From NCBI RefSeq assembly GCF_001044395.1, contig NZ_JANU01000064.1:1-64000 (forward strand): a DNA stretch of 64,000 nt, read 5' to 3'. Positions 57,803 to 61,988 of the stretch are shown piece after piece. The stretch's first letter is position 1; each line of letters begins with the position of its first letter. Position numbers and translations under genes: made by a program. Under the pieces are notes generated by a model. It searched no databases, was not told where the DNA came from, and saw nothing but the letters and a program-made list of their open reading frames with translations. This DNA comes from Caenimonas sp. SL110. GTDB lineage: Bacteria > Pseudomonadota > Gammaproteobacteria > Burkholderiales > Burkholderiaceae_C.

Positions 57803-58735
57803 ATGTCGGCCACCACCACAGTTATCTTCGCGGACCTCACGGGTAGCACCAGCCTGTTCGAGGTCCTGGGCAATGAGATGGCGACCCGAACCGTCACCAC
57901 CCTCACGCAATGGATAGGCGACGTCGTCGTGGAAAACGGCGGGCGCGTCGTCAAGACCTTGGGCGATGGCGTCCTGGCCGTCTTCCCCGACGGCATAGGT
58001 GCGGTACACGCGGCCGTCGATCTGCAACGCCAACACGCGCAGCGCCTGCAGGAATGGCCCAAGCAGGTCCGCATGCGGCTGCAGGTGGGCGTGGCTTCCG
58101 GTGAAGTGATCGATGTGGACGGCGACTGCTACGGCGACGCCGTCAACATGGCATCGCGGCTCTCGGACCTGTCGGGCGCCGACCAGATATGGGCCACGAA
58201 ATCGGTCGTCACGCAGCATCGCTCGGACCCGCATGGAGTTCGCTTTCGCAGCCTGGGGCCTGTGCCCATTCGCGGCAAGAGCAACGCGACGACCATCTAT
58301 CGCGTCGAGTGGGATGTAGAAGTCCACACCATGAACCTCACGGTCCCCGCAGCACTGGCGCCCAATCGTGGCGCAGCGCTGCTGCCACCGCCGGCGCAGG
58401 GCATCGCGCTGTCGTGGCTCGACCAGCAGAGGTTGTTCACGCTGGACCAGATGCCCGTGCACCTCGGGCGCGCGGGTGCAGCCGATTTCGAGGTGAACGA
58501 CCAACGCGTTTCGCGGCTGCACGCGCGTATCGACTGGCGCAACGGCACCTTCATCCTCACCGATCTGAGCAGCTACGGAACCTGGGTGCGCTTCAACGGC
58601 AATTCACTCGAACTGGCCCTGCGCCGAAACGATTGCGTCCTGGTCAGCGATGGCGAAATCGCGCTGGGTGCATCGTTCGAAGACTTCACGGTGCCCACCG
58701 TGGCGTTCACCGTGACGAGCGGCCAGCGACGCTAG
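57803..58735 (+). CDS. Class III adenylate/guanylate cyclase fused to FHA domain
   Basis: 310 residues. Residues 1 to about 170 are a class III cyclase: FADLTGSTSLFEVLG with metal Asp10-11 region, VVKTLGDGVLAVFPD with the second metal Asp, GVASGEVIDVDGDCYGDAVNMASRLSDLS with the transition-state Asn and Arg. All core catalytic positions appear present. Residues about 215-295 are an FHA domain: VHLGRAGAADFEVNDQRVSRLHARIDWRNGTFILTDLSSYGTWVRFNG, which binds phosphothreonine. It therefore probably makes cAMP or cGMP and docks to a phosphorylated partner. No signal peptide or membrane helix. AGGAA lies just before the ATG. Confidence 0.92.
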   Translation: MSATTTVIFADLTGSTSLFEVLGNEMATRTVTTLTQWIGDVVVENGGRVVKTLGDGVLAVFPDGIGAVHAAVDLQRQHAQRLQEWPKQVRMRLQVGVASGEVIDVDGDCYGDAVNMASRLSDLSGADQIWATKSVVTQHRSDPHGVRFRSLGPVPIRGKSNATTIYRVEWDVEVHTMNLTVPAALAPNRGAALLPPPAQGIALSWLDQQRLFTLDQMPVHLGRAGAADFEVNDQRVSRLHARIDWRNGTFILTDLSSYGTWVRFNGNSLELALRRNDCVLVSDGEIALGASFEDFTVPTVAFTVTSGQRR

Positions 58736-59688: not shown

Positions 59689-61077
59689 ATGACCGCCGCG
59701 TCACGGACAGACGATGACTTCATGCGGCTGGCGCTCGCGCAGGCCGACGCCGCGAGAGCTTCCGGAGAAGTACCGGTAGGCGCAGTGCTCGTTCGAAATG
59801 GCGAGGTGATCGCCACCGGACGCAACGCGCCCATCGCGGACCACGACCCCACCGCACACGCCGAAATCAACGCCTTGCGCGCCGCAGCCAAGGCGCTCGG
59901 CAACTACCGCCTGGACGGTTGCACGCTTTATGTGACGCTCGAACCCTGCGCGATGTGCGCTGGTGCGATGCTGCATTCGCGGCTCGCGCGGGTCGTTTAT
60001 GGCGCAGCCGATCCCAAGACCGGCGCGGCCGGATCGGTCGTCGATCTTTTTGCGCAAGAGCAACTCAATCACCACACGGCGGTGCAGGGCGGCGTGCTCC
60101 AGCACGATTGCTCGTTGGCGCTCGCCGATTTCTTTCGCGAGCGCCGCGAGAACAGTCGCGCCGCCGCGCAGCCCGTCCGCGACGATGCGCTGCGCACGCC
60201 TGAAAGCCGTTTCGACGCGTTGCCCGGTTACCCCTGGGAGCCTCGCTATGTCGCAGACCTTCCCTCGCTCGCCGGCCTGCGCATGCACTACCTCGATGAA
60301 GGTCCGGCAGACGCTCGCCGCACCTGGCTATGCCTGCACGGCAATCCGGCCTGGAGCTATCTGTACCGCAAGATGATCCCGGTGTTGCTGGAGGCGGGCG
60401 ATCGCGTCGTTGCGCCTGACCTCATCGGATTCGGCAAGAGCGATAAGCCAAAGAAGGACTCCGCGCACACGTTCAGCTGGCATCGTCAGGTCCTGCTCGA
60501 ATTCATCGAGCGGCTTGATCTGAAAAACATCGTGCTGGCAGTCCAGGACTGGGGCGGCATCCTGGGCCTGACGCTGCCGATGGAAGGCCCGCAGCGCTAC
60601 CTCGGCCTGCTCGTCATGAACACAACTTTTGCAACCGGTGACACGCCGCTCAGTCCCGGGTTTCTGGCGTGGCGAACCATGTGCGCGAAGACGCCGGAGT
60701 TCGACGTGGCGCGTCTCTTTGGGCGAGGCAATCCGCAGATGACCGAGGCTGAACTCGCCGCCTACAACGCGCCATTTCCCGACCGCGGACATCGTGCGGC
60801 ACTGCGTGCGTTCCCGCCCATGGTGCCCGAGCACAGGGATGCCGACGGCGCAGCCGTGTCGCGCCAGGCTCGCGACTTTTTTGCGAAAGAGTGGCAAGGT
60901 CAATCCATGATGGCGATCGGCGCTGCCGACCCCGTGCTCGGCGTTCCCGTCATGCAAACGCTGCGCGAATCGATACGCGGATGTCCCGACCCGATGGTGA
61001 TCGCGAACGCCGGTCACTTCGTCCAGGAGCATGGCGAGCCCATCGCTCGCGCGGCAGTGGGATACTTCCACCGGTGA
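59689..61077 (+). CDS. tadA: TadA tRNA adenosine(34) deaminase fused to a haloalkane dehalogenase-like domain
   Basis: 462 residues, one uninterrupted frame. Residues 1 to about 155 are TadA: FMRLALAQADAARASGEVPVGAVLV, Zn/catalytic HAE in TAHAEINALR, PCAMCAGAMLHSRL, making inosine 34 in tRNA-Arg. Residues about 165-462 are an alpha/beta hydrolase close to haloalkane dehalogenase type I: YPWEPRYVADLPSLAGLRMHYLDEGP, oxyanion HGNPAWSYLYRKMIP, nucleophile in LAVQDWGGILGLTLPM (Asp followed by the halide Trp), cap Trp in FLAWRTM, acid in GAADPVLG and His in NAGHFVQEHGE. All catalytic positions expected for a dehalogenase are present. The stop overlaps ldcA by GTGA. Whether the fusion is cleaved or both halves are active is unknown. 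Confidence 0.93.
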   Translation: MTAASRTDDDFMRLALAQADAARASGEVPVGAVLVRNGEVIATGRNAPIADHDPTAHAEINALRAAAKALGNYRLDGCTLYVTLEPCAMCAGAMLHSRLARVVYGAADPKTGAAGSVVDLFAQEQLNHHTAVQGGVLQHDCSLALADFFRERRENSRAAAQPVRDDALRTPESRFDALPGYPWEPRYVADLPSLAGLRMHYLDEGPADARRTWLCLHGNPAWSYLYRKMIPVLLEAGDRVVAPDLIGFGKSDKPKKDSAHTFSWHRQVLLEFIERLDLKNIVLAVQDWGGILGLTLPMEGPQRYLGLLVMNTTFATGDTPLSPGFLAWRTMCAKTPEFDVARLFGRGNPQMTEAELAAYNAPFPDRGHRAALRAFPPMVPEHRDADGAAVSRQARDFFAKEWQGQSMMAIGAADPVLGVPVMQTLRESIRGCPDPMVIANAGHFVQEHGEPIARAAVGYFHR

Positions 61078-61988
61078 AAAAACATATCTACATCTTTTCG
61101 CCTTCCAGCGCGATTCGCGACAAGGCCGTGGTCAGGCGCGGCGTCCAGCGCCTGAAGGCCCTGGGCCATGAAGTCGAACTCGACGAGGCCGTCTTCGCAA
61201 CCCATATGCGTTTTGCCGGTGACGACGAGACGCGGCTTGCAGCCATTCATCGTGCAGCCGCCAGCGGCGCTGACGTGGCGCTCATCACCCGAGGCGGCTA
61301 CGGCCTGACAAGGCTCTTGCCCGGCATCCGGTACAAGACGGTAGCCAAGGCGATCGACAAGGGTATGAAGTTCGTGGGGCTCAGCGACTTCACGGCATTT
61401 CAATGTGCGGTGATGGCAAAGACCGGCAGCGTCACCTGGGCAGGCCCCGCGCTCGGTGAAGACTTCGGCATCGAAGGCGAGCCCGACGACATCATGCAAG
61501 CGTGCTTCGAAGACCTCGTCAGCGGACAAGGCGAGGGCGCAGGCTGGCAACTGCCGGCGTCAGAAGCACAAGACAAGCCGCTGCACATCAAGGGCCAACT
61601 GTGGGGCGGCAATCTCGCCATCATCACGTCGCTCGCGGGCACCGAGTGGTTGCCCAGGGTCAAGGGTGGAATCCTGTTTCTGGAAGACGTGCACGAGCAC
61701 CCATACCGCGTGGAACGCATGCTGACGCAGCTGCTCTACGCCGGCGTGCTCAAGGACCAGAAGGCGATCATCCTGGGTCATTTCACCAACTACAAGCCGG
61801 TGCCGCACGACAAGGGCTACAGGCTCAAAACCGTTGTCGACTGGTTGCGCACGCAGGTGAAAGCGCCGGTGTTCACCAACCTGCCGTTCGGTCATGTCCC
61901 GACCAAGGTCGCGCTACCGGTGGGTGCGAAAGTGAATCTGGAAGTAGAGGGCAGGGACGCATTCGTGCTGTGGGGACACAGTCACTGA
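61074..61988 (+). CDS. ldcA: LD-carboxypeptidase (muramoyl tetrapeptide type), LdcA-like
   Basis: 304 residues starting with GTG at 61074 in the GTGA overlap with the TadA fusion; the frame open from 60891 lies inside it. KKHIYIFSPSSAIRDKAVVRRGVQRLKALGHEVELDE start, ITRGGYGLTRLLPGI, the catalytic Ser in FVGLSDFTAFQCAV, Glu in ILFLEDVHEHPYRVERML and His in LPFGHVPTKVALPVGAKVNLE form the S66 family Ser-Glu-His triad. It trims the terminal D-Ala of murein tetrapeptide for cell-wall recycling. Length is typical. Confidence 0.93.
   Translation: MKKHIYIFSPSSAIRDKAVVRRGVQRLKALGHEVELDEAVFATHMRFAGDDETRLAAIHRAAASGADVALITRGGYGLTRLLPGIRYKTVAKAIDKGMKFVGLSDFTAFQCAVMAKTGSVTWAGPALGEDFGIEGEPDDIMQACFEDLVSGQGEGAGWQLPASEAQDKPLHIKGQLWGGNLAIITSLAGTEWLPRVKGGILFLEDVHEHPYRVERMLTQLLYAGVLKDQKAIILGHFTNYKPVPHDKGYRLKTVVDWLRTQVKAPVFTNLPFGHVPTKVALPVGAKVNLEVEGRDAFVLWGHSH

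Follow-up and report, generated by a model that had tools for sequence, protein, structure and literature searches.

Organization of the fusion locus

The window analyzed here, the whole 64,000-nucleotide stretch of Caenimonas sp. SL110 (contig NZ_JANU01000064.1, positions 1 to 64,000), carries a tadA-HLD fusion gene on its forward strand (59689..61077). The frame starts with ATG at 59689, ends with TGA at 61075-61077, encodes 462 residues, and has in-frame relatives in other genomes. The TadA half spans residues 1-161 (59689..60171, forward strand); residues 6-161 score 206.4 bits against the NCBIfam TadA model PRK10860 (cut-off 150), with the HAE motif at residues 57-59 (59857-59865) and PCAMC at residues 86-90 (59944-59958). 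Residues 154-171 (60148..60201, forward strand; ...PVRDDALRTP here) make up the linker together with the beginning of the hydrolase half, a stretch that is largely fusion-specific and nearly invariant. The haloalkane dehalogenase half, complete in the window genome, spans residues 168-460 (60190..61068, forward strand), of which residues 166-460 score 324.9 bits against the NCBIfam model PRK00870 (cut-off 265); its assignment is further based on superposition with DppA. With 462 residues in one frame and both family cut-offs passed, the initial annotation of a complete TadA joined to a complete hydrolase is borne out.

Alignment of the hydrolase half to DhlA (1b6g) places D287 and W288, both present (60547..60552), on D124 and W125, the cap tryptophan W328 (60670..60672) on W175, D414 (60928..60930) on D260, and H443 (61015..61017) on H289, all on the forward strand. 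In DhlA we take these residues to be, respectively, the nucleophile (D124), the two halide-binding tryptophans (W125 and W175), the catalytic acid (D260), and the base (H289), with Glu56 at the oxyanion position. The match to haloalkane dehalogenases that the initial annotation had proposed therefore holds for the nucleophile, both tryptophans, the acid, and the histidine, and differs at N219, which occupies the position of Glu56.

Immediately downstream lies ldcA, encoding an LD-carboxypeptidase (Peptidase_S66; 61074..61988, forward strand), a neighbour that is conserved with or without the hydrolase. A possible GTG start at 61074 overlaps the fusion stop as GTGA, in agreement with the coupling previously noted. 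The whole fusion protein has one matching place in the window genome. Its predicted structure consists of two well-formed domains (mean pLDDT 89.5), the mutual placement of which is uncertain (pTM 0.69). The genome also encodes tRNA-Arg(ACG) (L274, anticodon ACG; 30 of 43 tRNA matches were typed), the TadA substrate in which A34 is deaminated. Upstream of the fusion, at 57803-58735, the window encodes an FHA domain fused to what is predicted to be an adenylate/guanylate cyclase domain.

Distribution of the fusion

From a scan of public genomes with a hydrolase alignment, the 80 best-matching named loci were retained. In-frame fusion to TadA was found in 76 of these, the remainder being three contig-edge cuts and one standalone hydrolase, so that the search for TadA-hydrolase fusions in Comamonadaceae proposed in the initial annotation found them to be widespread. 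Genera represented among the named loci include Ramlibacter, Caenimonas, Curvibacter, Rhodoferax, Hydrogenophaga, Polaromonas, Limnohabitans, Acidovorax, Ottowia, and Verminephrobacter. Some match occurred in 396 of 399 genomes of the window's family, and among the 150 family matches listed, 143 (window included) span both halves, six are hydrolase-only, and one lies at a contig edge. In Comamonadaceae, this fusion is the usual form of tadA.

Outside the window's family, a sample of 300 genomes from the order yielded four fusions, all in one other family (hereafter the second family). Samples of the class (369 genomes) and phylum (398 genomes), searched at E <= 1e-70, a cut-off that weaker or strongly decayed fusions may escape, revealed no fusion beyond the window's family: 3 of 9 and 10 of 22 matches, respectively, span both halves, the window being counted among them, and the remaining matches are hydrolase-only.

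In the window's family, genome G042 (100% complete, 40 contigs) has no TadA-level match and G090 has a weak one only, reflecting either an assembly gap or a true absence of TadA. Among the 42 TadA-only loci, 26 carry an IP-x-G-(E/D/Q) motif in the TadA tail, often as IPTGEA-x-(E/H)L within an acidic tail (L203, L205, L207-L210, L212-L219, L222, L223, L225-L227, L229, L230, L232, L233, and L243-L245); this tail is a further TadA extension in the window's family.

Integrity of the hydrolase active site

After removal of duplicate sequences, at least six in number, the comparison comprised 169 distinct fusions from the window's family and 25 standalone hydrolases, from which three contig-edge loci bearing the fusion motif (L153, L168, and L169) were left out. 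We defined as intact the fusions that possess D287, D414, and H443. The full catalytic set anticipated for the hydrolase half is thus present in the window and in 107 of the 169 fusions, and is incomplete in the other 62, hereafter termed decayed. Although they do not define the group, W288 and W328 are found in 107/107 intact fusions, and N219 in 106/107. Because the catalytic set is kept in 107 of 169, hydrolysis probably still matters in most fusions. The zinc-binding and proton-shuttle residues of TadA, H57, E59, C87, and C90, are present in all 107 intact fusions and in all 54 decayed ones that were aligned.

Decay is graded: its extremes are a single Asp-to-Gly substitution and the deletion of more than one third of the domain. 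At the first extreme, L064, L151 (Verminephrobacter), and L171 (Rhodoferax) are full-length, with Gly at the nucleophile position and with W288, W328, D414, and H443 in place; others lack more of the catalytic letters, and many are without the cap and the C-terminal part. At most 215 residues of the hydrolase half are left in 26 of the 62, compared with 302 in the window. Catalytic residues persist in few decayed fusions (D287 in 5, W288 in 10, W328 in 22, D414 in 11, and H443 in 8 of 62), counts that are approximate beyond about residue 285, where decayed forms align poorly. It should also be considered that the 62 were recruited by similarity to the window protein, and a fully eroded hydrolase half would therefore be counted as TadA-only. 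Some decayed fusions were found in genomes assembled as one contig (L040 in G004 and L048 in G128), so broken assemblies do not explain all of them. In a separate case, L183 (G068), a stop codon follows about 109 residues of the hydrolase half, which may represent a sequencing error or a further truncation.

Residues retained in the hydrolase half

The part of the hydrolase half that outlasts the active site is a core at residues 161-285 (60169..60543, forward strand), present also in fusions without an active site. Within it lies the motif D-K-P-K-K-x3-H-x4-H (residues 252-265; 60442..60483, forward strand). Its K255 is found in 61/62 decayed and 107/107 intact fusions and in 0/25 standalone relatives; K or R at position 256 in 60/62, 107/107, and 2/25; and H260, which is partly absent from standalone relatives, in 60/62, 107/107, and 10/25, respectively. 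A second retained motif, APFPDRGHRAALRAF (residues 361-375; 60769..60813, forward strand), contains G367 (59/62 decayed, 107/107 intact, 0/25 standalone) and R369 (46/62, 106/107, and 5/25). The linker is likewise kept: among the 62 decayed fusions the frequencies of P162, R164, D166, and A167 are 0.98 each and that of R169 is 1.00, the last being found also in 24/25 standalone relatives. R164 occurs in 61/62 decayed and 106/107 intact fusions and in 1/25 standalone relatives; given that this linker and its frame are common to relatives, a frameshift or sequencing error at 60150-60200 is very unlikely. The pattern stays when the decayed set is thinned to 41 rows with less than 70% identity over the core (K255 in 40/41). 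The second-family fusions are without the KK motif, all four having the standalone-type letters KPVD or KPAD followed by Tyr.

Substitution rates were estimated by the Nei-Gojobori method in 51 chosen pairs of near relatives, which are non-independent, and synonymous-saturated pairs were left out of the ranges. In decayed pairs dN/dS was 0.08-0.39 for TadA, 0.10-0.57 for the core, and 0.09-1.07 after residue 285. With low dN/dS and a set of kept letters that includes ones standalone relatives lack, the retained core looks like selected protein sequence rather than a relic. Considering as a pseudoenzyme a domain that is kept and constrained after catalytic loss, such domains are found in relatives, the window protein itself being catalytically complete by its residues.

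A globally basic hydrolase half was not found, the median net charge over residues 168-285 being 0 in intact fusions, +1 in decayed fusions, and -2 in standalone relatives; the second-family fusion, without the KK motif, has +2. Since the charge of the core hardly differs, any case for RNA contact rests on the local motif. Similarly, comparison of fused with TadA-only rows did not reveal a strong fusion signature on the TadA side: differences in frequency are confined to residues 92 and 95, which also split the TadA-only rows, so that a new interface is not visible in the TadA half. The lysines and histidine of the core motif, situated beside an RNA enzyme, suggest tRNA contact or support of the TadA dimer.

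Phylogeny of the fusion and of active-site loss

The hydrolase sits between tadA and ldcA, which are neighbours also in most relatives without a hydrolase. In the stretches fetched, a same-strand ldcA lies downstream in 101/106 intact fusions, 50/54 decayed fusions, 37/42 TadA-only loci, 15/15 fusions unclassed in that count, and 4/4 second-family fusions. A combined TadA+LdcA tree was inferred from 192 rows (four from the second family) that had a long enough LdcA, out of 219 fused and TadA-only loci; the 42 TadA-only loci are a subset of such genomes in the family, and 36 of them are on the tree. One clade with a local support of 100 holds 151 of the 152 fused rows of the window's family. 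None of the 36 TadA-only rows falls inside this clade; that is, complete loss of the hydrolase was not seen within it. The exception, the decayed fusion L189, groups among TadA-only rows in both this tree and a 93-row tree, from which L236 and L109 were dropped as long branches and the remainder thinned. Its misplacement is driven by LdcA, as the nearest rows are fused when the TadA half is used alone. When all 77 fused rows of the window's family were constrained to one clade, the resulting tree was better than the freely searched 93-row tree (p-AU 0.95), and a single fused clade is not rejected. A single origin of the fusion within the window's family is supported but not proved.

On the 192-row tree the decayed label requires 18 changes, nine of them forced by well-supported (starred) branches. 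The 93-row tree gives 15 changes, six of them forced, and these counts are rough because the constrained tree is better than the free one, which is consequently not optimal. The TadA half alone forces two changes and LdcA alone eight. The active site was likely lost independently many times, the number not being fixed.

The four second-family fusions (L072-L075) have an intact active site. Their hydrolases fall inside a standalone clade (SH-aLRT 98, quick tree), and they also lie outside the window-family fusions on the TadA+LdcA tree. On the hydrolase tree, in which 54 of the 107 intact fusions were included, the intact-fusion group has a support of 94 and is not starred. The hydrolase tree does not support a single event behind the fusions in the two families, and forcing the two fused groups into one clade was rejected (p-AU 0.0025) in a test with 44 rows, namely 16 of the 107 intact fusions (thinned), the four second-family fusions, and 24 of the 25 standalone relatives, with the long branches L220, L061, and L062 left out. 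Given this placement and the outcome of the test, TadA probably acquired a dehalogenase on two occasions, each time at this junction.

In L061 and L062, intact fusions from one genus (g124), the hydrolase half forms a long branch and the C-terminal end has been rewritten. Genome G041 encodes an intact standalone dehalogenase (L055) close to the fused clade, together with a frame (G041:C118:14080-15267) that matches query residues 11-380 at 46% identity and looks like a decayed fusion.

Proposed role of the hydrolase half

We regard it as somewhat probable that the hydrolase half serves a tRNA editor as an accessory module, which has probably remained an enzyme in many species and has become a pseudoenzyme elsewhere. 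According to this proposal, a tRNA-Arg(ACG) A34 deaminase would have been extended C-terminally, apparently once, in the ancestor of a Comamonadaceae group, through insertion of a DhlA/DppA-type haloalkane dehalogenase between tadA and ldcA. Once fused, the hydrolase half would have taken on a job for the deaminase in which its own chemistry was not needed, most likely helping TadA to hold tRNA or its dimer by way of the DKPKK-x3-H loop, the GHRAALRAF segment, and the conserved linker. This second, TadA-tied job would have freed the hydrolase chemistry for loss wherever its substrate stopped mattering. Many species, including the window's, retain the active site, which is probably functional there; elsewhere it has been lost, in some cases by one substitution and in some with excision of the cap and C-terminal part, leaving a pseudoenzyme module. 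We infer that the retained job concerns TadA, and guess that it consists of tRNA contact. Because its active site is intact, the window protein may be bifunctional. The initial annotation had suggested that fusion recruits the hydrolase to tRNA; the evidence points to a hydrolase half that serves TadA, and the direction is probably the reverse.

A more specific version of this proposal, which we advance tentatively, is that a haloalkane dehalogenase fold was recruited to a tRNA editor and acquired a basic motif that contacts tRNA, its chemistry being lost repeatedly thereafter, so that an alpha/beta-hydrolase domain became an RNA-editing cofactor. If this is true, the independent second-family fusion at the same junction would represent a natural replicate captured before decay. 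The retained core could instead serve without any role at the tRNA, if the C-terminal helix of TadA came to rely on it for folding or solubility and the rest was free to decay. Such structural dependence fits with the kept part being mainly N-terminal and nearest to TadA, with the looseness of the sequence after residue 285 (median pairwise identity of 0.21 over residues 286-360 among decayed fusions), and with the conservation of R153 together with the linker. A folding prop, however, has no obvious need for a basic motif whose K255 is foreign to the standalone enzymes (0/25), and would not readily account for the survival of the GHRAA segment in most decayed forms once much of the intervening cap has disappeared; we consider this explanation unlikely, while giving it more weight than the two that follow.

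If fusion served co-expression only, as the initial annotation had also suggested, an active dehalogenase or related hydrolase would have been joined to TadA and the decayed forms would be pseudogene ends on their way out. In favour of this account are the conservation of W288, W328, and N219 among the 107 intact fusions, the intact standalone enzyme that accompanies a partly matching fusion in G041, and the stop inside the hydrolase half of L183. Pseudogene ends, on the other hand, fit poorly with a hydrolase half that persists without an intact active site in 62 of the 169 fusions and keeps an acquired motif, with dN/dS values for decayed cores that stayed below 1 in every unsaturated pair, with decayed cores widespread on the tree, and with complete loss being unseen in the fused clade (0/36 TadA-only rows), and we give this account very little credence. 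We find it just as improbable that the half is a regulatory pseudoenzyme, tuning TadA through a ligand or sensor site rather than acting as an RNA-binding module. A site of this kind could be lined by H217, W222, D244, G249, S251, D252, K253, K255, H260, and H265, each present in at least 0.94 of the 62 decayed fusions; most of these residues, however, are invariant or nearly so in the standalone enzymes too and may be structural, and we know of no ligand.

Novelty and implications

Within the literature searched, to which most subscription papers and the protein databases did not belong, no description of a TadA-hydrolase fusion was found. Domain fusion followed by pseudoenzyme drift is a known kind of event; the present instance looks new, as do its breadth and its connection with tRNA editing. 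Laboratory adenine base editors derive from TadA. If much of the family runs its TadA with a co-opted hydrolase, the decayed series would constitute a natural experiment on which parts of an enzyme fold survive once its role is purely non-catalytic, and entries labelled haloalkane dehalogenase in Comamonadaceae may in fact be tRNA editors whose hydrolase half is dead or active part-time. The step catalyzed by TadA is described as essential in E. coli (PMC11472039). A large dehalogenase mining run is reported to have excluded sequences with additional Pfam domains (PMC13355053), an exclusion by which the fused group would be hidden.

Comparison with known systems

In sequence and predicted fold, the N-terminal half is a TadA and the C-terminal half a haloalkane dehalogenase of the DhlA group, which is presumably haloalkane dehalogenase subfamily I. 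Residues 165-462 of the predicted model superpose on DppA (2xt0), a member of this group, with a Z score of 45.5 and 1.4 A over 297 residues at 54% identity. The nucleophile, the two tryptophans, the acid, and the base are shared between the window protein and DppA, DpaA (7avr), and DhlA (1b6g). The window protein differs from the group in having N219 in place of Glu56 and in possessing KPKK and G367, which are absent from standalone relatives, and its fused relatives differ in that 62 of 169 are without the active site. Since Asn replaces Glu in 10 of the 25 standalone relatives too, Glu at this position is perhaps not strictly defining for the DhlA group.

On the TadA side, a C-terminal extension has been described in S. 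pyogenes TadA, which its authors suggest may help in tRNA binding or positioning (PMC11472039). It is likewise a C-terminal addition, and the accessible part of that report mentions no hydrolase fold (PMC11472039). With the bacterial TadAs of E. coli and S. aureus the fusion shares a complete catalytic domain, HAE and PCxxC motifs, and a family score above the cut-off; the solved chains 1z3a and 2b3j, however, comprise 168 and 159 residues in all, whereas the fusion has approximately 300 extra C-terminal residues with an unrelated enzyme fold. Reliance of a tRNA A34 deaminase on a non-catalytic partner for tRNA placement is found in eukaryotic ADAT2/ADAT3, in which the partner is an inactive deaminase subunit, whereas the partner in the fusion is an alpha/beta-hydrolase within the same chain.
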